Source: Prevotella intermedia ATCC 25611 = DSM 20706
GTDB taxonomy: Bacteria; Bacteroidota; Bacteroidia; Bacteroidales; Bacteroidaceae
Assembly: GCF_001953955.1 (NCBI RefSeq)
Contig: NZ_CP019300.1
Coordinates: 1,674,001 to 1,738,000, forward strand
DNA length: 64,000 bases
Direction: 5' to 3'
The notes under the pieces were generated by a model. It was given only the letters and a program-made list of their open reading frames with translations, was not told where the DNA came from and did no database searches. Of this stretch, positions 2,855 to 62,444 are shown in pieces. A program made the position numbers and the translations under genes. Every line of letters starts with the position of its first letter. Within the stretch, counting starts at the first letter, position 1.

Positions 2855-3040
2855 TGTAAAGATAATTACCTTAAAAAATGATAACTGCGCTTTGACGTTG
2901 CGAAAGCGTAGGTTTTGCAATGCAAAACAGCCGCTTTTACCGTGCAAAACCTACGCTTTTAGAACGCAAAACAATAGGTTTTGTAATGCGCTGACAATAA
3001 ATCAGTTACACAAGAGATATGCTTGTGAAAAATCTTTACA
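2855..3040 (+). repeat. 186-bp dispersed element, copy 1 (type I), with four 22-bp units
   Basis: The ends are inverted (TGTAAAGAT at 2855, ATCTTTACA to 3040). The core is four consecutive 22-bp units starting at 2900, 2922, 2944 and 2966, each of the form GCAAAAC...GCTTTT. Unit 1 (GCGTAGGTTTTGC) can pair perfectly with unit 3 (GCAAAACCTACGC). The same 186-bp length recurs at 8449, 16262, 46985 (inverted) and 52523. It lies between the terminator at 2720 and the tRNA terminator, in a convergent gap. The weak ORF crossing it is not a gene. Confidence 0.9.
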
Positions 3041-3098
3041 GTTATTCTAATGAAGTTCAGTTATGTTTCGTATGCAACAAAAGCCAAATTGGGTATAA

Positions 3099-3134
3099 AC
3101 AAAAAGGAGGATTTCGTTACCGAAATCCTCCTTG
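3099..3134 (-). terminator. Terminator of tRNA-Lys
   Basis: On the minus strand, just after the tRNA, AAGGAGGATTTCG pairs with CGAAATCCTCCTT (13 bp, 4-nt loop), followed by TTTTTG. It is a textbook intrinsic terminator. Confidence 0.9.
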
Positions 3135-3207
3135 TGATTCGCATGGGGCTCGAACCCATGACCCCAACATTAAAAGTGTTGTGCTCTACCAACTGAGCTA
3201 GCGAATC
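3135..3207 (-). tRNA. tRNA-Lys (anticodon TTT)
   Basis: Read on the minus strand the gene has acceptor stem GATTCGC/GCGAATC, D-loop sequence AGCTCAGTTGGTAGAGC, anticodon arm CAACA-CTTTTAA-TGTTG with anticodon TTT, and T-arm GGGTTCGAGCCC. The discriminator base is A and CCA is not encoded. It is transcribed alone, with its own promoter 30 bp upstream and terminator directly downstream. Confidence 0.97.
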
Positions 3208-3236
3208 TTACCAAACTTTCTTTTCAAAAGCGAGTG

Positions 3237-3268
3237 CAAAGGTACTGTTTTTTTTCGACACAGCCAAA
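3237..3268 (-). promoter_or_regulatory. Promoter of tRNA-Lys
   Basis: On the minus strand, TTTG (3268-3265), a 20-bp spacer and TACCTTTG (3244-3237) match the Bacteroidetes primary-sigma consensus TTTG-N19-21-TAnnTTTG exactly. The tRNA 5' end lies 30 bp downstream. Confidence 0.85.
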
Positions 3269-3375
3269 TTATTCGCAAAATTTTTATTCATTTTTATAAG
3301 TTTGCCACTTTGCAGAACGGCTGCTACTTGCAAACAAACAAGTATCAAGGCTATGTGAAACACTGCAATACAGCT

Positions 3376-4482
3376 TTATCCTTGCGAACTCTCGGCACTC
3401 GTTTCTGTTTCCACCTCTTCCTCTTTTGTTACGTAGCGTTTCCAGTAAGCAATGATGAGGGTTGTTAATGGCAAGGCAATTATCAAGCCTATGAAACCTA
3501 ACAGTGCTCCCCACACAGAAAGCGAAAGCAGCAAGATTGCTGGGTTGAGGTTCATAGCCTTTCCCATTATCTTTGGCGTTACTACCAAGTCGCAAAGCAC
3601 TTGGATAATAGCAAAAACAAGCGTTGCAGTTCCAAACACCACCCAGAAGTTCTGCCCCGTATCGGCAGCCTTGAGCAGCGACAGGAATGCCATCGGAATA
3701 AATGCCAATGCGTGCATATAGGGGATTAAAGTCAGCACACCAATCAATATGCCCATACCAATAGCAATTGGAAAGTCGATAATGGTAAACCCGATGCAGA
3801 ACAAAATGCCCATAGTGAGTGCCACCAAGCCTTGTCCACGAATGTAATTATTCAGTTCTGCTGCTACATCTTGCATCAAGTCTGTCCAGAAAGGGCGATG
3901 CTTCTGTGGGAAAATCCTAATGAAGTTCTTAACCAGAAACTCGTAGTCGAGCAATATAAAGAATAAATATAATAAGGTGATGAACGATGCTATGATGCTT
4001 ATAACCACGCTTGCCGTCTGCCCCAAGAACGAGAAGAACTTGGGTATGGAGTTCTTTACAGTTTCTGTAAACTCGGTACTGTTGAGGTAACGGTGTATCT
4101 GTGGCTGATACTCTTGTATCCATTCACGAACCATATTCGTAATGCTGTTGCCACTTGTAGTACGCTGCACATATTTGTTTGCCACAACACTGAGTTTCTC
4201 TGCTTGGTCTATCATTGGCGGAACAATGGTGTAGACAACGCCAGTAATAACCGCTACCACCAGCAACATTGTGATAATGACGGCTATTGCTCGTATCTTG
4301 ACTTTCAGTTTGTACTGCACGAACTTCACGACAGGGTCGAGCAGGTAGGCAAGAAACCATGCTACGAAGAATGGCAACAATACGTGGCTAAGATAATTTA
4401 CAACATAAAGCACGGCAAATACCAAAACCGCTACCAAGAACCAGCGTATGAATTTGTCGAAAGTAATCTTCTCATCAAACAT
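3376..4482 (-). CDS. AI-2E family transporter (PerM/YhhT type membrane protein)
   Basis: This is a 368-residue integral membrane protein with about seven to eight hydrophobic segments. The order is typical of the AI-2E/PerM family: paired N-terminal helices (residues 12-75), a periplasmic stretch (about 85-140), then a C-terminal bundle with the GLVALTMGILF and LTLIPYMHALAFIP regions. Family members export various small molecules or ions; the AI-2 link applies only to some, so the substrate is unknown. The C-terminus is short and acidic (EEEVETETSAES). It follows tdk by 36 bp on the same strand and is probably co-transcribed with it. No fault is seen in the frame. Confidence 0.85.
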   Translation of the reverse strand: MFDEKITFDKFIRWFLVAVLVFAVLYVVNYLSHVLLPFFVAWFLAYLLDPVVKFVQYKLKVKIRAIAVIITMLLVVAVITGVVYTIVPPMIDQAEKLSVVANKYVQRTTSGNSITNMVREWIQEYQPQIHRYLNSTEFTETVKNSIPKFFSFLGQTASVVISIIASFITLLYLFFILLDYEFLVKNFIRIFPQKHRPFWTDLMQDVAAELNNYIRGQGLVALTMGILFCIGFTIIDFPIAIGMGILIGVLTLIPYMHALAFIPMAFLSLLKAADTGQNFWVVFGTATLVFAIIQVLCDLVVTPKIMGKAMNLNPAILLLSLSVWGALLGFIGLIIALPLTTLIIAYWKRYVTKEEEVETETSAESSQG

Positions 4483-4518
4483 ATTTTCTTCCTTATTAAG
4501 TTATCTGAATAAATCTTC

Positions 4519-5127: not shown

Positions 5128-5135
5128 AATTGTTG

Positions 5136-5143
5136 CAAATATA
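5136..5143 (-). promoter_or_regulatory. -7 box upstream of tdk
   Basis: TATATTTG on the minus strand matches TAnnTTTG. It sits just above the tdk start, in the 60-bp gap after manA. No clear TTTG is seen at -33, so this is a weaker call. Confidence 0.5.
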
Positions 5144-5187
5144 GATAAATTATCCGATAAATCGATATTCGTGTTTCTGAAAGGTTG

Positions 5188-6459: not shown

Positions 6460-8361
6460 TTGAAAACATTTGAAGAATTAGGCGTTAGCGAAGAGATTCG
6501 CCGCGCTATTGAAGAGCTCGGTTTTGAACAACCGATGCCAGTTCAGGAAGCAGTTATCCCTTATTTGTTGGGCAATGGTAACGACGTAATAGCACTCGCA
6601 CAGACGGGTACAGGTAAGACCGCAGCATACGGAATACCAGTCTTGCAGAAAGTAGACCCAACGCAGAAAGAAACCCAGGCACTTATTCTCAGTCCGACAC
6701 GCGAACTCTGTCTGCAGATTGCCGACGACCTTTCCGATTTCTCTAAATACATCGACGGACTTCACGTTGCAGCAGTTTACGGTGGTGCATCTATCGAAAT
6801 GCAAAGTCGCCAACTTCGTAAGGGAGCGCAAATCATCGTGGCTACCCCCGGTCGTCTTATCGACTTGATGAAGCGAGGCGTAGCTAAGCTCGACACTGTG
6901 AACAACGTTGTGCTCGACGAAGCTGACGAAATGCTGAATATGGGCTTCTCTGAAAGCATCAATGCCATATTCGAGGGCGTTCCGTCAGACCGCAACACGC
7001 TGTTGTTCTCTGCTACAATGAGCCGTGAAATAGAGAAGATTGCCAAAAGCTATCTACACGATTACAAGGAAATAGTAGTGGGTAGCCGCAACGAAGGAGC
7101 CGAAAAGGTGAACCATATATATTATATGGTACACGCAAAGGACAAGTATTTGGCACTGAAACGCATCGTAGACTACTACCCAAGCATATTTGCGATTATC
7201 TTCTGTCGCACGAAGGTGGAGACACAAGAGATTGCCGACAAGCTGATTCGCGACGGATACAATGCAGAAGCCTTGCACGGCGACCTCAGTCAGCAGCAGC
7301 GCGACCTGACAATGCAGAAGTTCCGCCAGCACAATGTGCAATTCCTCGTGGCTACCGACGTTGCCGCTCGTGGATTGGACGTAGACGATTTGACCCACGT
7401 CATCAACTACGGATTGCCCGACGATATTGAAAGCTACACCCACCGAAGCGGTCGTACAGGTCGTGCAGGCAAGAAGGGCACGTCTATTTCGATTATCCAC
7501 ACACGCGAACGCTACAAGGTAAAGGCTATCGAGAAAATCATTCAGAAGGAGTTTGTAGACGGTACGCTGCCTGCAGCAAAGGATATTTGCAGCAAACAAC
7601 TCTACAAAGTGATGGACCAAATTCTGAAAGTAGACGTGAACGAAGAGGAGATTGAGCCGTTCCTAAAGGACATTTACCGCCATTTCGAGTATATCGACAA
7701 GGAAGATATTATAAAGAAAATCATCAGTATGACTTTCAATCGCTTCTTGGAATACTACGCCAATGCTCCCGAAATAGAAAAACCATCGGGCAAGCGCAGC
7801 GACCGAGAAGGCGAACGCGGCAGCCGCAGCAGTCGTGGCGAGCGCACCCGAAAAGCCCCACGCACCCCTGAAGCAGGCTACAAGCGTTTGTTCATCAACC
7901 TTGGAAAAGACGATGGGTTCTACCCTGGTGAGGTAATGCAGTTCATAAACAAGAACGTACACGGTCGTCAAGAAGTGGGACACATCGATTTGCTCGGCAA
8001 ATTCTCTTACATAGAAGTTCCCGAAAAAGATGCCAACAAGGTGATGAAAGCCCTTAATGGAACCACCTACAAAAAGCGTGAAGTGCGTTGCAACGATGCC
8101 GAAGAAGGCGGACACGGCCGTGGTAGTCGCAGCAATGGCGAACGTCGAGGCAAGCGAAACGATGACGAAACCAACAACCGCCGTTCTAACAGCAACCGTA
8201 AGGAACGCAGCAGCAAGCCGAAGCGCAACGCTCGTCCACAGCAAGAAACACCTACAACAGGCGATTGGCGACAATTCTTCCAGCACGATACCAAGTTAAA
8301 AGGCGAGATTCCAGATTTCTCGGAAGAAGGTTGGGCAAGAAGAAAACCAAAGAAGAAGTAA
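6460..8361 (+). CDS. deaD: DEAD-box ATP-dependent RNA helicase with DbpA-type RNA-binding domain
   Basis: This 633-residue helicase unwinds RNA for ribosome assembly, mRNA turnover and cold adaptation. Motifs in order: Q motif (QPMPVQE, ~27-33), Walker A AQTGTGKT (~48-55), PTREL, TPGR, DEAD (~150-153), SAT (~182), HGDLSQQQRD, ARGLDV, and HRSGRTGRAG (~322-331). A DbpA-like RNA-binding domain (RLFINLGKDDGFYPGE onward, ~476-550) and a basic Arg/Ser/Asn-rich tail follow. The start is TTG at 6460, giving the family-typical opening MKTFEELGV; no ATG in frame gives the N-terminus. The gene stands alone with its own promoter, long leader and terminator. CshA would be an equivalent name. Confidence 0.95.
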   Translation: MKTFEELGVSEEIRRAIEELGFEQPMPVQEAVIPYLLGNGNDVIALAQTGTGKTAAYGIPVLQKVDPTQKETQALILSPTRELCLQIADDLSDFSKYIDGLHVAAVYGGASIEMQSRQLRKGAQIIVATPGRLIDLMKRGVAKLDTVNNVVLDEADEMLNMGFSESINAIFEGVPSDRNTLLFSATMSREIEKIAKSYLHDYKEIVVGSRNEGAEKVNHIYYMVHAKDKYLALKRIVDYYPSIFAIIFCRTKVETQEIADKLIRDGYNAEALHGDLSQQQRDLTMQKFRQHNVQFLVATDVAARGLDVDDLTHVINYGLPDDIESYTHRSGRTGRAGKKGTSISIIHTRERYKVKAIEKIIQKEFVDGTLPAAKDICSKQLYKVMDQILKVDVNEEEIEPFLKDIYRHFEYIDKEDIIKKIISMTFNRFLEYYANAPEIEKPSGKRSDREGERGSRSSRGERTRKAPRTPEAGYKRLFINLGKDDGFYPGEVMQFINKNVHGRQEVGHIDLLGKFSYIEVPEKDANKVMKALNGTTYKKREVRCNDAEEGGHGRGSRSNGERRGKRNDDETNNRRSNSNRKERSSKPKRNARPQQETPTTGDWRQFFQHDTKLKGEIPDFSEEGWARRKPKKK

Positions 8362-8448: not shown

Positions 8449-8634
8449 TGTAAAAATAATTCTCTTAAAAAGTGATAACTGCGCTTTGACGTTGCGAAAG
8501 CGGCTCTTTTGCGATGCAAAACCTACGCTTTTACCGTGCAAAACAGCCGCTTTTGGAGCGCAAAACAATAGGTTTTGTAATACGTTGATGTATAATGAGT
8601 TACACAATAGTCATACTTGCGAAAAATATTTACA
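8449..8634 (+). repeat. 186-bp dispersed element, copy 2 (type II)
   Basis: It has the same length and ends (TGTAAAAAT ... ATATTTACA) as copy 1. The four 22-bp units are present but the modules are exchanged. Unit 1 carries GCGGCTCTTTTGC, unit 2 the CCTACGC module, and unit 3 the CAGCCGC module, so unit 1 again pairs with unit 3. It sits between two convergent genes. Confidence 0.9.
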
Positions 8635-8779: not shown

Positions 8780-11700
8780 TTATTTTACCACGCATTTCTT
8801 GCCATTAATGATATATACGCCACGCTTCAGACCATTCTTGTCTTTGGCACCCGTACGTACTCTGACGCCGTTGATGTTCGTTATATCGTATGACGAAGGA
8901 GTTTCCTCGACCGAATTAACGGAAGTTGCACTGGTAGAGGCATCGTTAGAGAAGCCCGACTCATTAACCTCGCCGTCCTTAGATGTGTACACGACGGTAA
9001 CATTGTACACGTGGTCGCCCGATACACGACTGTTGGTATAAGTCTGTTGGTTGCCTTTTACGCTGGCAATCTTCTTTCCGTCTCGATAGATAACGTATTC
9101 TGTTATATCATCGTCAGCACCTGTTGACACCTGTTCGTAGCTTACATCATCGACGCCGAAGATATAAGATTTGCCCTTAGGCGTGTTATGATGAATGGCA
9201 AAATACTTTGCACCTTCTGGAACCTCAACGGTAATGTATTTCCAGTTGGCACTTTCGTTGTAGGCAATGGTTCCATCTGCCTTTTCGCTCTTTATCTTAA
9301 CGAAATTGGCAGTGTCGGCACCTTCTGTCGAATAAAGAATATCGAAGTGCTCAGCATAACTCGTATCGCCTGTGCGAGTGGCGATGTTCATCACATAGAA
9401 CGTTACTTCCTGCTTTCTGCCAGACAATCGTGGAGAGATGAGCCAGTTGTTTTGTGCTACGAATTTACGATTTGAATCGTATCCATAAACAGCTGCAGCA
9501 TATTGGTTGCCACCGTGAGGAGCCAGTCCTGGATTCACGTTTGTCATATCTTCAATCCACCAATTAGGGTTGAAAGCAGTAAAGGCGAAAGGTTCTCCCT
9601 GTCCAGGGAATGTTGAAGAGGGCTGTAATGCGCCTGCCATACCCTTATCGCCATCAACCATCGTCCAAGGCGTCATATTCTTTGCGAACGGAGCATAGCC
9701 TTCAAAACCATCGTCGATTCGTTCGGGTTCTGGCAATACAGGGCATCCCCAAGTGAGCACGACCTTGTTATCAGCAACTACCTCTGCCTTAAGGTCATTT
9801 ATTCTGCCGTATGGCGAAGGTACAACCTTGACTGTTTTGGTTTCTGTTTCGTTATCGGTGAGCTGCATATCACCATCGTATATTATCATGGCTTTCACCT
9901 GTAACGATGTAGCCTGCTCGTTGATAGCAACAGGTAGCTTCAAAGATATTGTATCGGTTGCCATCGGAGAAAGCTCTTTGAGTCTGCTAACTGCATCGCA
10001 CTGGTTGCCATTTATGTAGAGAAGGGCAAAGTATCTGCTTACCGTTGCAGCTCCAAGATTCTTCACAACCATTTTAACTGTTCCCTTCTTGCCTGCCACA
10101 ACGCTTTCTGGTGCCTCGATGCTTACTGCTGCGAGGTTACGTTCGAGCTGGTTGATAATGTTTATATTGTCTACTCCAATAAACACTTTAGAACCTTCGG
10201 CTACTCCATCGAACTTCACAATGATGTATCGTTCTTTTGCGTAGGCACTCAAATCAACCGTCTGACGTTCCCAGCCGTTCTTTGTTGTCTTGCTAAGGTC
10301 ATACTGTGCTGCTGTATGGTCTTTGCCATCGGGTGTCTGCACCAATACTTTCAGTGTGGCTTCGTTGCCTATCAAAGAGTAAAGGTCGAAGAATAATTTA
10401 GGATTTGTAGCCCCTGAAAGAGCAACCTTCGGCATATTGACCGAAGTTTCATCACCCTTTTGTATGGTAAACTCTACATCTTTTCCAGCATATTCTTCAA
10501 CATAGTTTGCCCAAACGAGGCTACCGCCGTCGTTATCAGAAGCAGCATCGGGAACTACACGCCACGCAGCTGCCGTTTTACGACTGTTGTATTGTTCGTT
10601 GCCTAACAAGGAAGCAAAACCATTGTCTAACTGTCCGCCCTTCATACTCTCTTTGAAAGGTAGCGGAATGCACGGACCTACTACCACTCCACGAGCAGTA
10701 ACATAGTCGCTCTGCCCACCGTCGCCGTTGGCTCTGACGGCAAACCACGCCAAGGTTTGAGTCTTTCCGTCTTCCATTGTGGTTTTGTTAGGGTCAAAAG
10801 GTATAGTTGTGCTTGTTTCGCCAGGGTTGCTTGTCGTCAGCGAGTCGCTCAACTCGTATCCGAACTCGCCCTTCTCAAGTGCAAAGAACGTTACGCTGAC
10901 ACCTTCTGGGTCGAAATATCCACCGTTGGCTCCCGTTGATTTAAAGGTGTCCCACACTGCTTTCAGCTTCGTTCCTTCGTCCGTAAACACAATGCCCGTA
11001 GGATTATGAGGACGGTCTAGTCCTATAAATGCCCTGCCTGCAGACTTGCGTCCGATATGCCCATCAAGGAAAGGCGCAATGGTATAGGTGTGGAAGCCAC
11101 CTGCCGGAACGTCTTTGTCTGTCCATTCCACTCGTGTGCCTGGCGTTGATGCGTCAAGGCGGGCTACCTGCATTCCATCTCTGCTTACAACAAAGCTGTC
11201 TACGCGGTTCAACATCGCCCCGTTGAGGCTGACACTCGGAGTGATAAAGCTGACGGTTGCTTGTAGTACACCTTTTTGTGCAGGGGTAATTGTCAGCGAT
11301 TTTACCGAATCGGGAGCCGCAGCGTATGCGGTTTTGGTAATAGTAATGCTGTCTACAGCTATCTGATACTTGTCTTTGGCACTGGTATTATCGTGGAAAC
11401 CAATATAGAAGTTGCCGTTTGCATCGGGAATAATATCAGCAGTGCATACTTGCCACTGTCCGTTGGTTTCTGAAAAGTCAGGAGTGAAAGTCTTTATTAA
11501 GGTGTTTGTCAGTTGTTCAGGATTGTTTCCCTTTCCCCACTTTACCTCGAGCGTGTTTCTATGCGTGTCCATTATATTACGCACTTTAAACGCTACTGTG
11601 TAAACACGGTCTGATGTTAGATGTATAGGAGGCGTTACAAGCCAGTCGTCGCTGGCTATTGTAGCGTGCGTTTGATGGCTCATGGCACCATAACCCAACA

Positions 11701-13540: not shown

Positions 13541-15943
13541 TTACTTCTTCAACACTTTCTTTCCGTTTACGATGTAAACACCAGCTGGCAAGTTTTCGAA
13601 CTTGGTATTGAGACGAACGCCTTGCAAGGTATAGATAACCTTAGCTGCTGTGTCTACTGTCTGAACGTTGATACCAGATGGTTTCCATGTACCGTGCAAG
13701 TGAATGCTAGCAGTAGCACCTGCTGCGAGCAATTTGTCTCTCGCTTCTTTAGCTTCTTCCTGCGACATGTTTTCCTTTATGATACATGGAGCACTCTCAA
13801 CAAGCTCTTTAGCCTTTATCAAAGTTAGACCTGTGAGCTCTTTCACAATCTTGGTTACTGCAATTAAGTTGTTGCCATAAGATTCCAATACCAAGTCGTA
13901 GGTTTCTGGTGCATCGTTAGGTTGGATAGTTACCCAATCGGTTACGACCTTGCCGTTTGAACCAAAGAGAGATTGGAAAGTATAGCTACCTTTCTTGAGT
14001 TCCTTCCACTCTGTACCTTCAGGAGATACGATTTTACAGTCAGTAAATTCAGGAACATATCCTAATCTACCCATACTACCTTTGTACTCGTCCTTTTCTG
14101 TTCCATTACCCTTAACGCGCACGTTACATTTGTTGAATTTCCAACGGCCACTGGTGATACCATTCACACCACCGCTAATTTCCAAAGAACAACCGTCCAC
14201 AGTAATAGTACCAGGGTTGAGAATACCATAGCAGTAGTCTTCATTACCTGACATCGCACCATTTATTGTAAGCTTGCCTGCGCCAGTGAAAGTAAGTTTT
14301 TCATAATTAACCATACCACCGCTCTTTTCTGAAGTGATGGTATTTTCACCGATGAGCTTAATTGTCAAACCTTTGACAGATGTCCAAAGACCAACGCCAG
14401 CAGCCTTCTCTGCAGTGGTGGTAATTGTAGCATTGTCGAAAGTGAGTGTATTTGTTGCAGGGTCATAAGCAGCCTTACCCTTTACACCTTCTATGGCTGT
14501 CAAATCTCCACAGTTTTCAGAAGTAATCTTCTTTCCACCAATCAGAATGTTATAGTTCTCTGGTGTAGTGTTAGGTTTGATAGTTACCCAATCGGTTACA
14601 ACCTTGCCGTTTGCAAAGAGAGAGTAGTAAATATAGCCGCTCTTATCAAGCTTCTTCCATTCTGTACCTTCTGGAGTAACGATTTTACAGTCGGTAAATT
14701 CAGGAATATACGAAACTCTACCGATGCTACCCTTAAATTCGTCCTTAGTTGTGCCACCACCCTGGATACGCACGTTGCACTTATTGAACTTCCAACGACC
14801 ACTGGTGATACCATTCACACCACCGCTAATTTCCAAAGTACAACCGTCTACAGTAACAGTACCTGGGTTGAGGAAGCCATAGCAATAATCTTCATTACCT
14901 GACGTTGCACCAGTTATCTTGAGCTTACCAGTACCTGTGAAAGTAAGTTTATCATAATTAACCATACCACCTCTCTTTTCTGAACTGATGGTGTTATCAC
15001 CGATAAGCTTAATGGTCATATCTTTGACAGATGTCCACAGACCAGCAGCTTTATCTGCTGTAGTGGCGATAGTAGCATTTTCAAGAGTGAGTGTGTTTGT
15101 TGCTGGGTCAAAAGCAGCCTTACCTTTCACACCTTCTATGGCTGTCAAATCGCCACAGTTCTCAGAAGTTACACGCTGACCACAAATCAGAATATTATAG
15201 TTTTCTGGCGCAGCATTAGGTTTGATAGTTACCCAATCGGTTACGACCTTGCCGTTTGCAAAGAGAGATTGGAAAGTGTAACCACTCTTTTTAAGCTCTT
15301 TCCATTCTGCACCCACAGGAGCAGTGATTTTACAGTCGGTAAATTCAGGAACATATCCTAATCTACCCATACTGCCCTTGTATTCGTCCTTGGTTGTTCC
15401 GTTACCCTTAACGCGCACGTTACACTTGTTGAACTTCCAACGACCACTGGTGATACCATTCACACCACCACTGATTTCCAAAGTACAACCGTCCACAGTA
15501 ACAGTACTTGGGTTAAGGATACCATAGCAATAGTCTTCATTACCCGACATTGCTCCAGTTATGGTAAGCTTGCCCTTACCTGTGAAAGTAAGTTTTTCGT
15601 AATTAACCATACCACCACTCTTCTCTGAAGTAATGGCATTCTCGCCGATGAGGACTACTTTCAAATCCTTGATAGAGTTCCAAAGACCAACGCCAGCAGC
15701 CTTCTCCGCTGTAGTGGTAATAGTAGCATTGTCGAGCGTGAGCGTGTTCGTTTCAGGGTCGTAGTTCGCCTTACCCTTCACACCGTCTATGGCTGTCAAG
15801 TCGCCACAGTTCTCAGAAGTTACTCGCTTTCCGCCAATCAGAAGATTGTAGTTTTCTGCCTGCACGTGCTGTGGCAGAACGAAAGCAGTAACGAACAGTG
15901 CGACCACAGCCGCATACATGTTCCTAAGTAAATTGTTTTTCAT
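13541..15943 (-). CDS. Secreted three-repeat protein fused to a ribosomal L7/L12-like domain, T9SS tail
   Basis: This 800-residue protein has a signal peptide (1-29, cut near VQA-EN). Three tandem repeats of 217, 215 and 218 residues follow (about 30-246, 247-461, 462-679). Each opens with ENYN-L-I-GG/CG, holds YDPxTNTLT and several conserved Cys, and looks like a beta-helix. Residues ~682-750 match the ribosomal L7/L12 C-terminal fold: IAVTKIVKELTGLTLIKAKE, then LVESAP, then a helix and AGATASIHLH, including the GL..AK.LVE signature. The last ~50 residues end in AGVYIVNGKKVLKK, a T9SS-style tail. An L7/L12 domain normally binds translation factors in the cytoplasm, so its place in an exported protein is odd. 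Function unknown; a good promoter lies at 16046-16077. Confidence 0.85.
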   Translation of the reverse strand: MKNNLLRNMYAAVVALFVTAFVLPQHVQAENYNLLIGGKRVTSENCGDLTAIDGVKGKANYDPETNTLTLDNATITTTAEKAAGVGLWNSIKDLKVVLIGENAITSEKSGGMVNYEKLTFTGKGKLTITGAMSGNEDYCYGILNPSTVTVDGCTLEISGGVNGITSGRWKFNKCNVRVKGNGTTKDEYKGSMGRLGYVPEFTDCKITAPVGAEWKELKKSGYTFQSLFANGKVVTDWVTIKPNAAPENYNILICGQRVTSENCGDLTAIEGVKGKAAFDPATNTLTLENATIATTADKAAGLWTSVKDMTIKLIGDNTISSEKRGGMVNYDKLTFTGTGKLKITGATSGNEDYCYGFLNPGTVTVDGCTLEISGGVNGITSGRWKFNKCNVRIQGGGTTKDEFKGSIGRVSYIPEFTDCKIVTPEGTEWKKLDKSGYIYYSLFANGKVVTDWVTIKPNTTPENYNILIGGKKITSENCGDLTAIEGVKGKAAYDPATNTLTFDNATITTTAEKAAGVGLWTSVKGLTIKLIGENTITSEKSGGMVNYEKLTFTGAGKLTINGAMSGNEDYCYGILNPGTITVDGCSLEISGGVNGITSGRWKFNKCNVRVKGNGTEKDEYKGSMGRLGYVPEFTDCKIVSPEGTEWKELKKGSYTFQSLFGSNGKVVTDWVTIQPNDAPETYDLVLESYGNNLIAVTKIVKELTGLTLIKAKELVESAPCIIKENMSQEEAKEARDKLLAAGATASIHLHGTWKPSGINVQTVDTAAKVIYTLQGVRLNTKFENLPAGVYIVNGKKVLKK
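13694..13900 (-). other. Segment encoding the L7/L12-like C-terminal domain
   Basis: Codons for residues ~682-750 of the repeat protein. Alignment by eye with the usual L7/L12 C-terminal domain: valine/isoleucine-rich first strand, helix VTKIVKELTGL, LxxAKELVESAP, helix with EEAKEARDKLLAAG, final strand ATASIHLH. All elements are in the right order and spacing. Confidence 0.75.
13907..15856 (-). repeat. Three in-gene tandem repeats of ~650 bp
   Basis: Unit boundaries in the gene are about 15856-15206, 15205-14561 and 14560-13907. The units are nearly identical over long stretches, for example the segments encoding EISGGVNGITSGRWKFNKCN. Such identity implies recent duplication or gene conversion and allows copy-number change. 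Confidence 0.9.
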
Positions 15944-16261: not shown

Positions 16262-16447
16262 TGTAAAGATAATTCTGTTAAAAAGTGATAACTGCGTTTT
16301 GACATTGCAAAAGCGTAGGTTTTACCGACCAAAACAGCCGCTTTTACCGTGCAAAACCTACGCTTTTAGAACGCAAAACAATAGGTTTTATAATACATTG
16401 ATAAACAAACAATTAGACAATAGTTATTCTTGTGAAAAATATTTACA
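16262..16447 (+). repeat. 186-bp dispersed element, copy 3 (type I)
   Basis: It has the same length, the ends TGTAAAGAT and ATATTTACA, and type I module order. Unit 1 (AAGCGTAGGTTTTAC) is slightly decayed but still pairs with unit 3 (CAAAACCTACGC). This copy lies between divergent promoters, unlike most others. Bases 16078-16261 left of it hold a short inverted repeat near 16221 and nothing else recognisable. Confidence 0.9.
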
Positions 16448-25396: not shown

Positions 25397-25436
25397 CATT
25401 CACAGCGATTTACGCTACAAAAACATTTCTCTGCCA

Positions 25437-25524
25437 ATTTCTTTACACGTAAATAAATATTTATTTACGTGTAAAGAAATATTTACTTACACGTAGAAAA
25501 AGAATTATTTACGTGTAAATAATT
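25437..25524. repeat. 88-bp palindrome array, ACGTGTAAA type, copy 1
   Basis: ACGT cores lie at 25447, 25467, 25491 and 25511, alternating in direction (TTACACGTAAA / TTTACGTGTAA). Bases 25437-25480 are a perfect 44-bp palindrome. The same array occurs at 39797 and 59535. It lies after the M16 terminator. The rest of the gap to 25615 shows no ORF. Confidence 0.9.
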
Positions 25525-25614
25525 TGCCGATGTGCAGCAAGAACAGCATAGAATCTTGGTATTGACAAGGAGAAAATAGCTGTAAAACGTGCATTGAACC
25601 AACATATTGAAAAC

Positions 25615-28299: not shown

Positions 28300-28789
28300 G
28301 AAAGGGCATTCCTTTTCGCACATCATAGCACTTGCAATCGCTGCCATAACAGCGATTGCGTGCAAAGATGCCCGCACCTACGACAGCTATAAAGCCTTGC
28401 CAATCAATGGGTGGGAGCGCAACGACACGGCTGTCTTCTACATTCCACGCCAATGGGAAGGAATGTATAGTATGGACTTGGGCGTAAGGGCATCGCAAAG
28501 CTATCCATACAAGAATATTACGTTCATCGTCGAACGCACCGTAATACACAAGAAAAGAAAGAAACTAACAAGTCGCAGCTACCAAGATACCGTAACTTGC
28601 AACATCATAAACGACGATGGAAGATTGGCAGGAAAGCGCGGAATTACAACAAGCGAGATACAACAACGCATTGCCATTTTTCCACTAAAACGCAACGATT
28701 CGCTCCGCATTTCAGTGCGCCACATCATGAGCAAGGAACTGCTTCAGGGCATAAGCGATGTAGGAATACGAATCATAAAACGCAGATAA
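28292..28789 (+). CDS. gldH: Gliding motility lipoprotein GldH
   Basis: This 165-residue lipoprotein has a signal ending AAITAIAC (Cys ~24). Its all-beta core (VFYIPRQWEGMYSMDLGVR, then TFIVERTV) and the final GISDVGIRIIKR match GldH. In Flavobacterium gldH is needed for gliding, and homologues occur in non-gliding Bacteroidales that use type IX secretion. Its ATG overlaps the ricT stop by 8 bp. The presence of proteins with T9SS tails at 1.7, 8.8 and 13.5 kb is consistent with a working T9SS. The penicillin-binding protein that often follows gldH is not here; a sigma-factor gene follows instead. Confidence 0.88.
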   Translation: MNRKGHSFSHIIALAIAAITAIACKDARTYDSYKALPINGWERNDTAVFYIPRQWEGMYSMDLGVRASQSYPYKNITFIVERTVIHKKRKKLTSRSYQDTVTCNIINDDGRLAGKRGITTSEIQQRIAIFPLKRNDSLRISVRHIMSKELLQGISDVGIRIIKRR

Positions 28790-28967
28790 ACAAATAATAA
28801 AGGGTAGATAAACTAAAAGAAACAGGGCATCTAAACAGCTGAGACTTTCCTTTCAATAAGACCGTATCTCCCTTTCAAAGAAGCCAATTCTCCTTTTTCA
28901 AATGGCAGAACGGCTGACAAAACTCTTCTAAAAAGGCGTAAAAAAACATATATTATTCTGTATTTCC

Positions 28968-33141: not shown

Positions 33142-33873
33142 CACTTTCTATTTCAATATTGTTTGTAATAAGTTCAATATTTATTTTTTATTCACAATTT
33201 AAGGCAAAACAGATATTAAAATAAGGTATAACAAGCTGTTAAGGTGTACTTGAAGAGTGAGCGAAAGCCATCAGAATTTCTCTTGAATACAGCTTCGATG
33301 TAAGTCTGCCTATACTTAACGCACAAATTCTGCCTATCGCCCTGCATCTTTCCGTCTTAAAAACTGTATAAAAGTGTTTAGTGTAAAAATTCGATTTGAA
33401 CAAGCAAAATAGAGCTGTGAAACACCCAAATAAGCAGTTAATCGTCCAAGAAAAATGTTTTCAGATTCTAAAAGAGCCGCTTTCGCTATGCGAAAGCGGC
33501 TCTTTTACACGGTAAAAGCTACTCTTTTGCAACGCAAGACATACGCTTTTACAAGCCAATTCTACTCTGTACATCATATTTATTGATTGTTTTGCGAACA
33601 CAATCTTTCCATTTCATTGCACAAACATCACACACACAAACATAAACAGCTAATAATTAAGCCATTAAACTTGCACACAAATGCTGCAATTATTTGCAAA
33701 TAATTCTTCTTTCACGCAAAAAAGCCGCCTTCTCGCCGTTGTTTCACGCTTGTTTTTTAACAACTTACTATTCTTATTTTATCTAAATTAACAAATTACA
33801 TAAACCTCTTATCCATTAATTTCTACCACCAAAAATTCGCAAAATGATAATTTACACCCCATATTTTGGCAAC
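33142..33873. other. Non-coding stretch of ~730 bp with one 22-bp array
   Basis: No ORF with coding character is seen on either strand between the Cys-heptad gene and the terminator of the flippase gene. Apart from the array at 33466-33553 the sequence is AT-rich and unstructured. It might hold a decayed gene or an untranslated RNA, but I found no signature of a known RNA. Confidence 0.5.
33466..33553 (-). repeat. Stand-alone 88-bp array of four 22-bp units (GCAAAAG/GCTTTT type)
   Basis: Unit edges fall at 33466, 33488, 33510 and 33532, each 22 bp. The first two units form a perfect hairpin (AAAAGAGCCGCTTTCGC / GCGAAAGCGGCTCTTTT, 17 bp, 3-nt loop). It shares the unit type of the 186-bp elements but lacks their flanks and inverted ends. 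Confidence 0.85.
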
Positions 33874-39721: not shown

Positions 39722-39796
39722 CGTCTGTCTATCCAGCACGACTGCGAAAAACGTGTCTACCGAATCGGTTTGGGCATTCATTTTCGCAATCAGACG

Positions 39797-39893
39797 AATT
39801 ATTTACACGTAAAGAAATATTTATTTACGTGTAGAGAAATATTTACTTACACGTAGAGAAATTATTATTTACACGTAAATAATTTGAGCGACA
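39797..39893. repeat. Palindrome array, ACGTGTAAA type, copy 2
   Basis: ACGT cores lie at 39807, 39827, 39851 and 39873 in alternating direction, closely matching copy 1 (25437). It lies between convergent genes (methyltransferase and galE). Confidence 0.9.
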
Positions 39894-39906
39894 AGAATTT
39901 TTGCAC

Positions 39907-46984: not shown

Positions 46985-47170
46985 TGTAAATATTTTTCGC
47001 AAACATAACTTTTACTTAACTATCTCGCTATCAACACTTTGCAAAACCTATTGTTTTGCATTCCAAAAGCGGCTCTTTTGCACGGTAAAAGCGTAGGTTT
47101 TGCGTTGCAAAAGAGCCGCTTTCGCAGTGTCAAATCGAAATTACCGTTTTCCGTTGGAATTATCTTTACA
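46985..47170 (-). repeat. 186-bp dispersed element, copy 4 (type II), inverted
   Basis: Read on the minus strand it has ends TGTAAAGAT and ATATTTACA and type II module order. Unit 1 GCGGCTCTTTTGC pairs perfectly with unit 3 GCAAAAGAGCCGC; copies 2 and 5 have one mismatch here. Again exactly 186 bp, between convergent genes. Confidence 0.9.
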
Positions 47171-52522: not shown

Positions 52523-52708
52523 TGTAAATATAATTCTGAAGGAAAACGATAATTTCGATTTGACGTTGCGAAAGCGGCTCTTTTGCGATGCAAAACCTAC
52601 GCTTTTACCGTGCAAAACAGCCGCTTTTGGAACGCAAAACAATAGGTTTTGCAATGCATTGACAGCAAACAAGTTACACGACAGATATGCTTGTTAAAAA
52701 TATTTACA
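52523..52708 (+). repeat. 186-bp dispersed element, copy 5 (type II)
   Basis: It has perfect 9-bp inverted ends (TGTAAATAT at 52523, ATATTTACA to 52708). Module order equals copy 2. Again 186 bp and between convergent genes. Confidence 0.9.
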
Positions 52709-52781: not shown

Positions 52782-54101
52782 CTACTTCTGTTGTGGGTAC
52801 ATTGTTACGACGTTTGCGCCTTTTATGTGGCGTTCGAAGTGCGAAATAAGTGCTTCTGAATATTGTTTGTGCTTCACGTCCATAGGTTCGCCGTCCAACT
52901 GAACAGCGTCTATGCCCATATATTTCTTCATAAAGTCGGCAGCAGAACGCTGACTTATATAGTCGGATTCCTCAACGGTGATGGGCACAACTTGGTGGAA
53001 CTGAATGGTGCGGCCGCCTATATTGGCAAACACTTCGTTGGGTACATCGGGCAGCGGACACAGCATCAGCACGGCAAAGAAGTCGGTGGAAGCATCGAAC
53101 GAGAGTTCTTCGCTGTCGCTGTCATTGTAGCTCAGCGTGTCGCCCAGCTGAAACTGGAAGTTGTAATAGGTGTATTGCACCACATCGCGCAGCAAGCGGA
53201 GATACCAATAGTTGCTGTCTTTGCTTAAATCGGCATCGGTTACGTTCCAGTCGGGCGGCAGATACATAACGTATTCAAAGTGTTCCACCACAAAGCCATC
53301 GGTGTATTTGGTTTCGTCGAAAGTTGTTTCGCCATTGTCCGACCGCTTGTAATACTCCTCGTTGGGCACACGAATGGCTCCTGCGCCGACAGTGCAGAGC
53401 GTCCAGTAGTTGTGCTGCTTGGTGGGAGGAATGCTGACAATGTCGATGGGAAAGCCTTCGCCGTCGGTATCGTGCAGCACAGCATCAATCTTTCCGAAGC
53501 GTTCTTCCACGAATTTCCGTAGGTCTGCGCGCTCTTCTGCACTATAACGGGGTAAGGGTTTGTCCTCGTCGGTTTTCTTTTCCAACTGCATATACGATAC
53601 GATATTGCCCAAAATGCGTTCGGGTTCGTCGGAAAAAAGGTAGACAACGCCTATATCTGTCTTGTCTTCCGTCTCGATATAAATGTATTTCTGCGCCAAC
53701 CATATATCCTTAATCAACGAGAACGGCGTGGTAAGATAGCGTGCCTGAATGCCATCGACTGTGGTTACCGACACCGATATGCCTTCTTCGTCGATGCGAT
53801 AAGTATTGAGCTTTAATGTTTTGTGTATCTTTCCGTAAATATAAACATAGTAGGCAAGAATGCAAAACAAGACGATGAACACACCGAGTACGGCAAGTTC
53901 GACGCTTCGCAGACTAAAGAACAAAGGGGATACGAGCAGAATAAGCCAAGAAACAAGCATTTTGCGGGTATGCTGCGCCCACAGTCCGCCAACGGCACGA
54001 GGTATGAACCACCACATAGACTTGTCGCAACGGCTCGCAACTGGCTCGGGATTATCGTGTATCAGCAACTTTAAGGCTTCGTCTCTTGTAATATGCCTCA
54101 T
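52782..54101 (-). CDS. Membrane-anchored SUFU (suppressor of fused) domain protein
   Basis: This 439-residue protein has two N-terminal membrane helices (~45-65 and ~68-90). A beta domain like the bacterial YcxB/PH type follows (~95-180, YRIDEEGISVSVTTVDGIQARY). The C-terminal half (~185-400) reads as a SUFU domain: NYWTLCTVGAGAIRVP, EYVMYLPPDWNV, YWYLRLLRDVVQYTY, FFAVLMLCPLPDV, and TIQFHQVVPITVEESDYI. Bacterial SUFU proteins are often immunity or regulatory proteins near polymorphic toxins, but no toxin gene is seen nearby. The gene ends close to the 186-bp element at 52523. Domain assignment is from residue pattern; function unknown. Confidence 0.75.
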   Translation of the reverse strand: MRHITRDEALKLLIHDNPEPVASRCDKSMWWFIPRAVGGLWAQHTRKMLVSWLILLVSPLFFSLRSVELAVLGVFIVLFCILAYYVYIYGKIHKTLKLNTYRIDEEGISVSVTTVDGIQARYLTTPFSLIKDIWLAQKYIYIETEDKTDIGVVYLFSDEPERILGNIVSYMQLEKKTDEDKPLPRYSAEERADLRKFVEERFGKIDAVLHDTDGEGFPIDIVSIPPTKQHNYWTLCTVGAGAIRVPNEEYYKRSDNGETTFDETKYTDGFVVEHFEYVMYLPPDWNVTDADLSKDSNYWYLRLLRDVVQYTYYNFQFQLGDTLSYNDSDSEELSFDASTDFFAVLMLCPLPDVPNEVFANIGGRTIQFHQVVPITVEESDYISQRSAADFMKKYMGIDAVQLDGEPMDVKHKQYSEALISHFERHIKGANVVTMYPQQK

Positions 54102-54984: not shown

Positions 54985-55094
54985 TGTTAGAAACGGTTTG
55001 CGCCTAAAAGGTTGTTAAAAGAGAACGCGGAAACCTATTGTACGGGAAAGGCATCGTGGGGTTTTCTGGCTCTGTTTTCAGATGTATAGTCAGG

Positions 55095-55204
55095 TATGAT
55101 GTCATATTTAAACGGATATGATATCATCTTCTGAGAAATATGACGTCATATTCGGACAAATATGACGTCATTTCCGAGCAAATATGACGTCATATTTTTC
55201 ACCA
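55095..55204. repeat. Palindrome array, ATGACGTCAT type, five units at 22-bp period
   Basis: TATGAYRTCAT starts at 55095, 55117, 55139, 55161 and 55183, an exact 22-bp period over 110 bp, with a possible sixth, weaker unit after it. The cores are TGATGTCA, TGATATCA and TGACGTCA. Single copy in the window. The surrounding gap (54985-55303) has no ORF. Confidence 0.9.
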
Positions 55205-55308
55205 CATCATATCATATTGAAACACAGCATATTACAGATGCGCTTTTTCTACATGGAATATAGCCCGACAACGGCGTTGAAACTAGGGTGAAATTACCCC
55301 TAAAAACG

Positions 55309-55342
55309 AAGAGCCGACACGCTGTACGGCATGTCGGCTCTT
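55309..55342. terminator. Terminator of the EF-G2 gene
   Basis: AAGAGCCGACA (55309) pairs with TGTCGGCTCTT (55332), with CGTTTTT following on the minus strand. Confidence 0.85.
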
Positions 55343-59036: not shown

Positions 59037-59064
59037 CACGCAGAACAAACAGAAACTTACATTT

Positions 59065-59388: not shown

Positions 59389-59417
59389 CACCCACATAAC
59401 AATATTAAATTAGGTTT

Positions 59418-59470
59418 AAGGCAGCTTCTAAAAATCCAATAAAGGTACTTTTTAGAAACTGCCTTAATTT
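59418..59470 (+). terminator. Terminator, also an AAGGCA...TCTAAAA inverted repeat
   Basis: AAGGCAGCTTCTAAAAA (59418) pairs with TTTTTAGAAACTGCCTT (59449) with one mismatch, then AATTTCG. Its arms resemble those at 13399-13461. Confidence 0.75.
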
Positions 59471-59534
59471 CGTTTTCATACGTGTCTGCAAACTGGCACA
59501 AGCCCCAATAGCTCATTTTTGACGCAGACAATGA

Positions 59535-59622
59535 AATTATCAACACGTTGAGAAATATTTTTCTACACGTAAATAAATTTTTACTTACACGTAAATAAAT
59601 ATTTCTTTACGTGTAAGTAATT
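59535..59622. repeat. 88-bp palindrome array, ACGTGTAAA type, copy 3
   Basis: ACGT cores lie at 59545, 59567, 59589 and 59609 (22, 22, 20 bp apart), with TACACGTAAATAAAT and TTTACGTGTAAG arms as in copies 1 and 2. Between convergent genes. Confidence 0.88.
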
Positions 59623-59689
59623 CGGCAGAACGACTTAACAACAGCTTTATAATATCACAACGCATTGATTATAATCAAGTTAAGAAAGC

Positions 59690-59735
59690 GCATTCCCAGC
59701 CCCGAAAAACGAAGAAAATGGGGCGTGGAAAACGC
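59690..59735 (-). terminator. Probable terminator of the Oar-like gene
   Basis: On the minus strand GCCCC pairs with GGGGC across an A/T-rich loop, extended by TGCGTTTTCC / GGAATGCGC. The T-run is short, so confidence is moderate. Confidence 0.45.
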
Positions 59736-59758
59736 ATTTTCTGCACATTTGTAGTGGC

Positions 59759-62077
59759 TTAGAAACGATTACGCTCGCTCTGTCCTGCTCCTGTTCCTTT
59801 ATATTTACTACGTGCTGTATTGAATTTATAGCGCAAAGTAACATAGAAATCTCGGCTATCGAATTCTTGTTTTATTTCTATGCTTAAGTTATTCGTATAA
59901 AGCAACGATTGATTGGCAGAGCGATTGAAGAGGTCGTTTACGCCTACAGTAACAGAAAGGCGGTCGTTCAAGAATGCTTTTCGTACCGAGAAGTTGAATG
60001 CGGAGGTGCTTCTGATAAGTTCAGTGTTCTCTGTTATACCTTTTGAATTGATTTGCAAGAATGCTTCTGCTGTCCAATCGTGCCTGAATTCAAACGAATT
60101 ATTCCACTTTATTCCCCATATTGGCTTGTTTAAATCGAACTTGCTGCCCAAACGTTCTATGTCGAACCATTGCTTTTGGCAGAATAATGTAAGTTGAGGC
60201 GACCATATACCAATTGTTGGTGCAGCGGTAAGGCTCAGTGTTAAGGCAGGAAACCTTTTGAAATTGCGGTAACGTAGGTTGGTTATATTTTCATCAGTGC
60301 TTTCTTGTTCGTTCCAATACATAATTTTGTTGTGTGTCTGTGTGTAGTTGGCCACAAAAGTAAGCCAGTTCCAACTACTCACAAGCGTAATGTTGTGTAG
60401 TGTTTCTGGCTTCAGCGTAGGGTTACCACTCTGACGCGTAAAGCGGTTTATGTACAACACGTCTGTACCCAACTGATTGTAAGAAGGGCGCGATGTCTTT
60501 ACCGAATAAGAGAGTTGCAAGCCTACTTTCTTTATTTGTGTTGCGAAAGTAAGCGACGGAAACCATTGGTTGTAGGTGCGGCTGTGTTCCGTGCTGTACA
60601 CTCCTTGGTCGTAATAATCGGAATTTACGTGCTCGTAACGCAGTCCTGCCATAAGCTGTCCGATAGGTGTGAGACGGCTATACTCGAAGAAGAAAGCGTT
60701 GTTGCGCTCCTTAATGGTCGATGCAGCATTGGCTACAATGCCTTCTTGGTTAGTGTAACTCTGTTCGTGATTGGTAAAAGTGTTCTCGTTTCCAACCGAT
60801 AAGCTGCCGCCAAACAGTGGGTGAGAGAGCACCAGCTTGGTTGCAAAGAACTTGTTTGCGTGCGTTCCTGCAGATGTTACTGTGCGATTATCGTAGTTGG
60901 CACTTTGCTCTGTCGTTGTGCGAAGTTCGGTCTCTTCTCCATAATAGTAATCGGTATTGAAGTCGATGTTCAGTTTTCCCACCTTTCCAACGTAGTAAGC
61001 AGAAAGGCTTTTATTAGGAATAGCAGTGCTTCTGTTTTGTATTTGCGATTCTATATGGTCGTAGAGCACATTGTTTTTAATTACATCAGTAGAGAATTTA
61101 CCGTGTTCGTAATTTGCCCCAACAAGCAAATTGGAGAAGAAACGTGCACCAATGGCATGGTTAGTATTAAACTCATAAGCTGCCGTAAGCATGTAGTTAT
61201 TATATGTATTGCGAGAACTAAAATCGCTTATCCATTTGTTTGTCCACAAATTGGTTGTCTGCACCTCGTTGGTAGTGGCTAGCCTAGTTAAGTTATTGCT
61301 AAGATTATAAGCCGAACCAGCCGTCAGCTCCAAACCATTGCGGCGATAATACATATTGAGCTGATTGTAAGTGTCCCAGTTTTCCCAATAATAAGCCGAC
61401 GTGCGTGCATCGAAACCAAAGCCGTCGCCTACCTTTCGCACCGTGTGAATGCGGATAACGGCACTCACCGTGGCATCGTAGCGAGCCCCTGGATTAGTTA
61501 TCACCTCGACGTCCTTAATGTCCGACGAGTTAAGACGCTCTATTTCGGTTGCGTCGGTTATCTTTCTGTTGTTTATATAGATAACTGCTACACCACGTCC
61601 GACGACCGAATAGCTGCCTTCCTTGCCCGTCAGCAACGGAATACGCTTGAGAACGTCGTTGCCCGAGCCTGCTTTTGCCAGCGACGAACCAACAATCGTC
61701 GTAACAAGAGCGTCATTTCGTATCGCCATCTTGGGGCGTTGCGCCGTAACGGTTACGCCTTCCATTGCTTTTGCCTCAGCTTTCAGCTGCAAAGTATCAG
61801 CAGCGAGGGGCAAAGAAACGTTGCGCCGTTCGTAGCCTACACCCAAAACGCGCAGAAACACCTGTGCGTCGGCAGACACAGAGAGCTGAAACGCTCCTGC
61901 CTTATCGGTTACTGCGCCCGTAACGAGCGAAGAGTCGCGCACGGAAAGCGCAATAACATTGGCATACTCGATAGGCAAACGCTGCTCGTCGGCTATCCAC
62001 CCACGAATGGTCTGCTGCGCCTTTGCAACGGTAGAAAACAATACCAAGGCTGTAACGATGGCATACAATTTCTTCAT
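59759..62077 (-). CDS. TonB-receptor-like outer-membrane protein (Oar/OMP_b-brl_3 type)
   Basis: This 772-residue protein has a signal peptide (MKKLYAIVTALVLFSTVAKAQ). A carboxypeptidase-regulatory-like domain (~22-105, IRGWIADEQRLPIEYANVIAL) and a plug domain (~110-215, VAVIYINNRKITDATEIERLNSSDIKDVEVITNPG) follow, then the outer-membrane beta-barrel family 3 region to the end (FYVTLRYKFN). Such proteins look like TonB receptors, often without a SusD partner, and may carry peptides or act as surface proteins. I use the ATG at 62077; the longer frame would place 16 residues ahead of the signal. TACCTTTG at 62123-62130 on this strand is the likely promoter box. Monocistronic. Confidence 0.88.
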   Translation of the reverse strand: MKKLYAIVTALVLFSTVAKAQQTIRGWIADEQRLPIEYANVIALSVRDSSLVTGAVTDKAGAFQLSVSADAQVFLRVLGVGYERRNVSLPLAADTLQLKAEAKAMEGVTVTAQRPKMAIRNDALVTTIVGSSLAKAGSGNDVLKRIPLLTGKEGSYSVVGRGVAVIYINNRKITDATEIERLNSSDIKDVEVITNPGARYDATVSAVIRIHTVRKVGDGFGFDARTSAYYWENWDTYNQLNMYYRRNGLELTAGSAYNLSNNLTRLATTNEVQTTNLWTNKWISDFSSRNTYNNYMLTAAYEFNTNHAIGARFFSNLLVGANYEHGKFSTDVIKNNVLYDHIESQIQNRSTAIPNKSLSAYYVGKVGKLNIDFNTDYYYGEETELRTTTEQSANYDNRTVTSAGTHANKFFATKLVLSHPLFGGSLSVGNENTFTNHEQSYTNQEGIVANAASTIKERNNAFFFEYSRLTPIGQLMAGLRYEHVNSDYYDQGVYSTEHSRTYNQWFPSLTFATQIKKVGLQLSYSVKTSRPSYNQLGTDVLYINRFTRQSGNPTLKPETLHNITLVSSWNWLTFVANYTQTHNKIMYWNEQESTDENITNLRYRNFKRFPALTLSLTAAPTIGIWSPQLTLFCQKQWFDIERLGSKFDLNKPIWGIKWNNSFEFRHDWTAEAFLQINSKGITENTELIRSTSAFNFSVRKAFLNDRLSVTVGVNDLFNRSANQSLLYTNNLSIEIKQEFDSRDFYVTLRYKFNTARSKYKGTGAGQSERNRF

Positions 62078-62122
62078 AACTGATATTATCTTATTGTTTA
62101 AATATTTCGTTGTTATTGTCTG

Positions 62123-62130
62123 CAAAGGTA
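62123..62130 (-). promoter_or_regulatory. -7 box of the Oar-like gene
   Basis: TACCTTTG on the minus strand, 45 bp above the ATG at 62077. It supports the shorter start. No clear -33 box. Confidence 0.6.
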
Positions 62131-62356
62131 AGAAAAGAACAATTATTTATAAAAAAAAGCGAATAAACTTTTCTTTTCACTGCGCCTTTTAACCTTTTGG
62201 GAATAATAAGTAGGTGTTCCAAGTAATTATATAAACACGTTACAAGCACACCCCATATATCGATTCCGTTGCAAAAGAAACGTTACCAATGCCCCATCTA
62301 AGCACTCGAAATAAGAAAAAGCACGGTTTAGAAACTAATTATGTCCGTGAAAATTA

Positions 62357-62444
62357 AATTATCTAAGCTTAGAGAAATAATTATCTAACCTTTGATAAGT
62401 ATTTATTTAAGCTTAAAGAAAATTTTATCAAAGCTTTGATAATT
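62357..62444. repeat. 88-bp palindrome array, TAAGCTTA type
   Basis: AAGCTT-type cores lie at 62365, 62387 (AACCTT variant), 62409 and 62431: an exact 22-bp period over four units. Arms are of the form TTATCTAAGCTTAGAGAAATA. Single copy in the window. The remaining gap to the RNase P promoter (62445-62661) holds nothing recognisable. Confidence 0.85.

Follow-up and report, generated by a model that had tools for sequence, protein, structure and literature searches.

Arrays in the window and their gene context

In a 64,000-nt stretch of the genome of Prevotella intermedia ATCC 25611 = DSM 20706 (contig NZ_CP019300.1, positions 1,674,001 to 1,738,000; hereafter the window), eleven intergenic sites carry short arrays of palindrome-like units that recur every 22 bp. 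A sequence-only reading of the window had pointed these sites out, and we recovered all eleven in their places and in the 22-bp register. Six arrays consist of GCAAAAC/GCTTTT units and, as judged from length, place, number and hosts, very probably represent PINSR, a repeat already described in this species. They lie at 2881..2991 (+; units in the order Y'-X-Y-Z) in the convergent gap between an open reading frame (ORF; 1609-2694, +) and a tRNA-Lys gene (-), at 8461..8585 (+) in a convergent gap 3' of a DEAD-box helicase gene, at 16290..16399 (+) in a divergent gap, at 33465..33566 (rearranged, with inverted units) in a tandem gap, and at 47034..47152 (-) and 52547..52665 (+) in convergent gaps. 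The last two are present in P. falsenii too; the divergent gap there retains leader and tail and has lost about three units, and the rearranged array has no counterpart in the mapped P. falsenii gap.

Three arrays of four units each are of the ACGTGT type, located at 25419..25537 (tandem gap), 39780..39898 and 59527..59638 (both convergent gaps); the P. falsenii counterpart of the third is a 22-bp array of the CTTATAAG type. A GACGTCAT-type array with five good units and one degenerate unit (55078..55226) lies 3' of the gene for EF-G2, and the same type occupies the same place in P. falsenii, whose EF-G2 is 98% identical to that of the window. Between the stop codon of this gene and the array, and outside the latter, there is a terminator-like hairpin of 14 pairs (55309..55342, -). 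The position 3' of EF-G2 was discarded as a preferred site, with arrays in 10/67 such gaps and 39/426 other gaps and no clear excess. The eleventh array, of the AAGCTT type and with four units (62339..62463), is found between an outer-membrane beta-barrel gene (59759-62125, -) and the RNase P RNA (62702-63084, +). A twelfth 22-bp match at 28751-28834 showed no palindrome (p 0.57), is without a P. falsenii counterpart (from 28753) and is probably a product of chance. Rfam matches at gathering score were limited to RNase P and a single tRNA across the window.

Period, sequence types and spread of the arrays

The source genome consists of two contigs of 1.97 Mb (C1) and 0.71 Mb (C2), and two chromosomes have been described in P. 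intermedia (PMC4755523). We scanned lags 10 to 60 in a first sample of 464 kb (the window plus 20 stretches) and a second of 400 kb (another 20 stretches), and called an array at 28 or more of 44 matches; in the first-sample count masked letters scored as matching, so that each lag has one extra non-intergenic row. Intergenic self-match in the first sample was 0.316 at lag 22 and 0.311 at lag 44, with a mean of 0.278. Smaller rises appeared at lags 66 and 77, of which the lag-77 peak, and perhaps part of the lag-66 rise, is probably a clustered regularly interspaced short palindromic repeats (CRISPR) array. Intergenic arrays numbered 48 at lag 22 and 42 at lag 44, with 0-1 at every other lag, and the second sample gave 49 and 44 with at most 1 elsewhere. 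Chance was rejected as their source, since the other lags yield almost none. The earlier reading had proposed a genome-wide autocorrelation and had named the lack of an intergenic excess at 22 bp as what would tell against the arrays; the sharp excess at 22 (and 44) in the source genome removes that objection.

The same reading had explained the period by two helical turns that place all units on one DNA face, which accounts poorly for the value of 22. With 10.5 bp per helical turn, 21 is as compatible as 22, yet arrays at lag 21 (0) and lag 23 (1) are rare in the first sample, and in relatives the intergenic counts are 10 and 4, against 55 at lag 22. The exactness of the period suggests instead that adjacent protein subunits would be in direct contact.

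In 1.614 Mb (about 60% of the genome) we counted 213 intergenic arrays at lag 22 or 44, which comprise 151 PINSR-type, 28 ACGTGT, 6 AAGCTT, 4 GACGTCAT, 3 TTGGAC, 2 CATACTGAT, 1 CTTATAAG and 18 other arrays; types were assigned through short key words, and part of the 'other' class is chance. The cores had been said to differ completely, which holds only in part: judged by eye, the AT-rich types have an AAATT-like boundary in common, and ACGTGT and AAGCTT arrays also have a GAAATATTTAT-like spacer in common. Palindromic symmetry at p<=0.01 was found in 20/31 non-PINSR arrays of the source genome versus 7/58 arrays of other periods, and several types are perfect palindromes without a loop. PINSR units are conserved and palindromic in their A/T tracts only: across 676 units AAA and TTTT are 96-99% conserved and the first A of AAAA 74%, while the 7-bp core varies freely. 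ACGTGT arrays have four units in 26/28 sampled cases, with three in one and five in one, and an array beyond the sample, near C1:1841000, has more. The median extent is 102-116 bp for PINSR, ACGTGT and relatives' arrays alike. The proposal that period and unit number are shared among differing sequences stands for the period in the source genome and in Prevotellaceae, and often for the number. The placement mostly downstream of genes, often between convergent ones, was confirmed by gap counts in the samples of the source genome and P. falsenii, in which PINSR arrays (n=148) occupy 58 convergent, 77 tandem and 13 divergent gaps and other types 19, 29 and 9.

The AAGCTT type lies upstream of at least one gene in 5/6 cases (three divergent and two tandem gaps) and for this reason may be an ordinary operator array. 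The window copy precedes a beta-barrel gene recognised by Pfam, and two more precede genes that resemble it by their N-termini alone. At locus L067, two AAGCTT-type arrays 14 kb apart (3757-3928 and 18142-18312) look by eye, with their neighbouring sequence, like an inverted repeat, a possible substrate for inversion.

Outside the species, 80 named loci around EF-G2 (1.45 Mb) contained 55 intergenic lag-22 arrays in 41/80 loci; the count was 35 at lag 44 and never above 12 at the remaining lags. P. falsenii contributed four of the 55, including two PINSR arrays. Palindromes at p<=0.01 were found in 40/55, compared with 7/58 arrays of other lags. The hosts include P. corporis, P. histicola, Segatella copri, Hoylesella marshii, H. 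timonensis, H. buccalis, Hallella mizrahii and Marseilla massiliensis, and the unit sequences vary among them (AAAGGTGGCCTTT, TGACACGTGTCA, GTTCGCGAAC, GCTTGTAGTC and others). Among arrays with a clear dyad axis, 33 axes are odd and 6 even. The ACGTGT type recurs in H. marshii (L149), and a TTTTCACGTAAA-like variant of it gave 14-23 matches per strand in three genomes of the genus. From other families of the order, 261 kb of 20 genomes (contig starts, several short) yielded one lag-22 array. A locus of another Bacteroidales family (L174) has two CTCACAAGTTTGTCAGTTTTTAC-like arrays with a 23-bp period (8222-8311 and 9622-9767), possibly a sister layout. Very long arrays of near-identical 22-bp units, candidates for strain typing, were seen in L073 (7423-7772, about 15 units) and in P. 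falsenii L202 (19763-19971, about 9 units).

For 26 of the 213 arrays, the corresponding place was identified in 400 kb of P. falsenii. PINSR was intact at 12 of 19 mapped places, recognisable but shortened or degraded at 4 and absent from 3, and was thus recognisably kept at 16/19; one further candidate is a separate copy in a nearby insert. ACGTGT gaps were the same in 3 cases and replaced in 1, in which the window gap 59493-59665 corresponds to 129 bp with the CTTATAAG-type array, and the GACGTCAT (1/1) and AAGCTT (1/1) gaps were unchanged. At one site that is empty in P. falsenii, a PINSR copy of the source genome lies between two nearly identical terminator-like hairpins (L258 6537), and P. 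falsenii has a single hairpin there (L202 6397-6521).

PINSR and other known repeats

Naito et al. published PINSR in 2015 as a 188-bp intergenic repeat that two P. intermedia strains carry in 177 and 184 copies, present also in P. falsenii, without terminal inverted repeats, regarded as distinct from miniature inverted-repeat transposable elements (MITEs) and with its function left open (PMC4755523). The GCAAAAC/GCTTTT type agrees in its intergenic place, its length of about 190 bp, its high copy number, its presence in P. falsenii and the lack of terminal inverted repeats on the repeat itself. The earlier statement that no described element has this pattern was wrong for six of the eleven arrays, as their type, the commonest, matches PINSR (PMC4755523). 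The passages of that paper that were consulted say nothing of 22-bp units, further types or a broader occurrence of the layout, and here some copies reside in a MITE-like element. Searches of the open-licence PubMed Central literature did not turn up the other array types or the shared layout.

Alignment of 138 copies from the source genome showed conservation over about 189 bp (roughly -117 to +72 relative to the anchor), comprising a leader, four 22-bp units and a tail. P. falsenii has 45 PINSR-type arrays in 400 kb. The distribution agrees with a repeat limited to one clade: among 61 genomes, the PINSR unit pattern is abundant in 2, namely the source genome (198+180 matches) and P. falsenii (G017, 113+99), with 14 matches in one other (G006) and 0-4 in the rest. 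Unit order among 87 copies was X'-Y-X-Z in 49, X'-X-Y-Z in 16 and Y'-X-Y-Z in 10; pairing of unit 1 with unit 3 was considered and discarded, the column signals mainly tracking subfamilies. The array located close to an Lrp/AsnC gene proved to be a PINSR copy of the ordinary kind.

ACGTGAGTTCGGTATAAG-like ends, which resemble those of ISPg3/MITE239, flank both sides of 3/144 PINSR copies in the source genome and 5/42 in P. falsenii, compared with 3/2000 and 6/2000 random, not specifically intergenic, places. Five of these eight flanked copies measure 453-456 bp and the others 344, 425 and 542 bp. Three P. falsenii copies sit in inserts missing from the source genome, one of them about 457 bp long; alignment of the inserts with the empty sites gave no clean target duplication. 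At least a minority of PINSR copies can, as a new observation, travel as MITE-like cargo. Terminal inverted repeats shared with insertion sequences were found in just this small PINSR subset, so that ends of known insertion sequences do not explain the arrays.

BrickBuilt MITEs of Porphyromonas gingivalis, compared by description only, are likewise intergenic tandem repeats with a leader and tail in Bacteroidales, but they are one family of 19 copies with a 23-nt unit, 1 to 22.8 repeats per element and IS5-type inverted repeats; 22-nt repeats in strain W83 are also mentioned (PMC4596501). The source genome does not follow that 23-nt period, with 1 intergenic array at lag 23 and 48 at lag 22. 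Repetitive extragenic palindromes (REPs) and the bacterial interspersed mosaic elements that contain them resemble the arrays as short palindromes in high copy, mostly downstream of genes and of several types in some genomes. They differ in that tagged REPs mostly bear GTAG or CGTC, those with GTAG being tied to REP-associated tyrosine transposases (RAYTs) (PMC3733652). RAYT-driven REPs were rejected since the Y1_Tnp domain of RAYTs had 0 matches in the source genome, while 5/14 control genomes did match; GTAG does occur inside some PINSR cores. We know of no fixed 22-bp, four-unit layout in REPs.

A possible docking platform and its rivals

Constant layout with changing letters is rare and indicates a physical constraint. 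A period of exactly 22 with free sequence is most simply explained by protein dimers in contact on adjacent palindromes, and the four units suggest a closed complex. We infer, at about an even chance, that the arrays may be DNA docking platforms for cooperative DNA-binding proteins that assemble as several dimers. Each 22-bp unit would comprise two half-sites in opposite orientation about 11 bp apart. Contact between neighbouring dimers would hold the spacing to 22 bp precisely, and closure of the complex, usually at four dimers, could underlie the frequent four units (88 bp). The types might reflect different proteins, paralogous or diverged, that share one assembly geometry. Among known protein sites, operator arrays such as those of Lrp/AsnC octamers, and parS, NBS, SBS and matS, are likewise dimer sites that are repeated or dispersed; the arrays differ from ordinary operators in their 3'-end position and number of types, and their cognate protein is putative. 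By analogy, an Lrp/AsnC octamer, which consists of four dimers, may be one candidate binder. For the 3'-end types our guess is that chromosome organisation or the separation of adjacent transcription units is the most likely role. If the arrays do bind host proteins, they would provide bait DNA of defined size with which to find these proteins in abundant oral and gut bacteria. PINSR, its function left open in 2015, now becomes part of a wider class.

The cooperative dimeric protein proposed earlier is favoured by the exact period and by changes in ACGTGT units that look more like those of protein sites than of hairpins. After a mismatch filter (111 units, 77 distinct), TT, TAC, GTA and AA are conserved in at least 108/111, and two variable arm pairs show 0 compensatory changes with 5.1 expected and 1 with 9.2 expected; 1/28 pairs tested was in excess (11 vs 6.7, p 0.018). 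Without the per-unit filter (136 units), the same letters are conserved in at least 131/136 and the same two pairs show 1 vs 7.1 and 2 vs 12.0 expected. Compensation below expectation fits half-sites that are bound independently.

Several results weigh against docking proteins. The binding protein is putative, and the two Lrp/AsnC genes and one ParB gene of the genome are fewer than the array types, so neither family alone explains the types. ParB-like sites were also rejected on their own account, as there is a single ParB_N match, beside an ORF that appears ParA-like by its N-terminus. The palindrome test at p<=0.01 is failed by 15/55 relatives' arrays, PINSR cores lack palindromic symmetry, and the median extent is longer in AAGCTT (132 bp), CATACTGAT (244 bp) and 'other' (128 bp) arrays. 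One orthologous gap that keeps the layout with another sequence type speaks for docking, but it is the only type swap among the six mapped gaps of named non-PINSR types. PINSR is far commoner than operators should be, with some copies in a MITE-like element, and the long arrays in L073 and L202 are minisatellite-like, with many near-identical units as slippage would give. One ACGTGT pair in the 136 units shows a compensation excess (3 vs 0.2). Three PINSR arm pairs do so as well (12 vs 0.4, 34 vs 19.8 and 102 vs 89.5 expected), and PINSR mismatches on the transcribed strand of tandem gaps lean to G-T (127 vs 97 A-C).

The PINSR mismatches and arm pairs, together with the palindromic units, would suit RNA elements, such as bidirectional terminators or 3'-end hairpins that stabilise mRNA as proposed for many REPs, and so would the lower frequency of arrays in divergent gaps (19/168 PINSR and ACGTGT arrays vs 69/343 gaps of 150 bp or more, counted in a slightly smaller sample with array gaps included; p 0.013). 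We consider this explanation improbable. A terminator-like hairpin lies inside the array at just 3/185 PINSR and 6/57 other gene ends, while a separate one precedes the array, as the 14-pair hairpin does at EF-G2, at 80/185 and 27/57 (43-47%; 12 gene ends too near an array were left out); array-free gaps have one in 78/303 (first 200 bp). Most arrays lack the GC-bearing hairpin followed by a T run of an intrinsic terminator, PINSR cores pair Watson-Crick in just 35-50%, and other PINSR arm pairs show compensation below expectation. Non-PINSR mismatches in the same strand context are about equal (G-T 99 vs A-C 93), ACGTGT compensation is low, several types are perfect palindromes that lack a loop, and an exact 22 is not needed for a hairpin. 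Taken together, the evidence points to a role at the level of DNA rather than RNA.

The main rival to docking proteins, which we see as possible but rather unlikely, is that the arrays are selfish or neutral repeats that became dispersed through transposition-like copying (partly in MITEs) and through tandem unit duplication, with the period inherited from common ancestors and no present function. This would agree with the PINSR leader, tail and boundaries about 190 bp apart, the ISPg3/MITE239-like ends of the flanked copies, the loss of whole units, the minisatellite-like arrays, and ACGTGT arrays that are identical although they lie far apart and differ in their flanks. A hint of one ancient superfamily comes from AAA and TTT 10-12 bp apart in 26/41 odd-axis consensus units of relatives (0.6 in a shuffled control, which destroys the palindrome as well). 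Contrary to it, types met just once or twice in 60% of the genome keep the same layout, four units prevail in ACGTGT arrays, most mapped PINSR places are still recognisable in P. falsenii, and chromosome 2 has almost no ACGTGT arrays but many of PINSR. The spacing of AAA and TTT and the conserved AAA/TTTT with a free core in PINSR would also be expected if A/T tracts phased every 11 bp statically curved the DNA near gene ends, with no sequence-specific protein involved; such phased tracts are lacking in GACACGTGTC, GCTTGTAG, TTGGAC and other types, and ACGTGT keeps TAC..GTA letter by letter, which leaves this structural account only a small chance.

Chromosomal distribution and neighbouring genes

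Among the matches listed, which cover all but 4 of 82 forward matches, C1 has 38/39 ACGTGT places and C2 has one (P 9e-5 for a spread in proportion to length), and C2 may hold one or two more. A 212-kb sample of C2 contained 0/28 of the sampled ACGTGT arrays and 28 PINSR arrays. The largest ACGTGT gap on C1 among the matches listed measures 351 kb (1.145-1.496 Mb) and encloses the position at which GC skew places the terminus (p 0.026). Some dispersed chromosome sites, of the class of parS, NBS, SBS and matS, avoid the terminus region, and to our knowledge little is known of chromosome organisation and separation in Bacteroidales. A bolder and quite unlikely extension of the docking-protein reading would be that Prevotellaceae own a new class of chromosome-structuring proteins, which form closed four-dimer complexes on 88-bp arrays with many sequence 'addresses' per genome and one fixed geometry, the ACGTGT address marking the large chromosome and sparing C2 and the terminus region.

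Three protein genes in the window are of separate interest. The gene at 32291-33037 (-) encodes a protein of 248 aa whose N-terminus is signal-like and whose C-terminus is DUF4890; its long CK-rich repeat run gives rise to 21/45-bp tandem repeats at 32432-32793. The 439-aa product of 52782-54101 (-) contains a SUFU (suppressor of fused) domain. Finally, residues 681-746 of the 800-aa protein encoded at 13541-15943 (-) form a domain like the C-terminal one of ribosomal L7/L12 (PF00542, E 3e-19), an unusual location for this domain.

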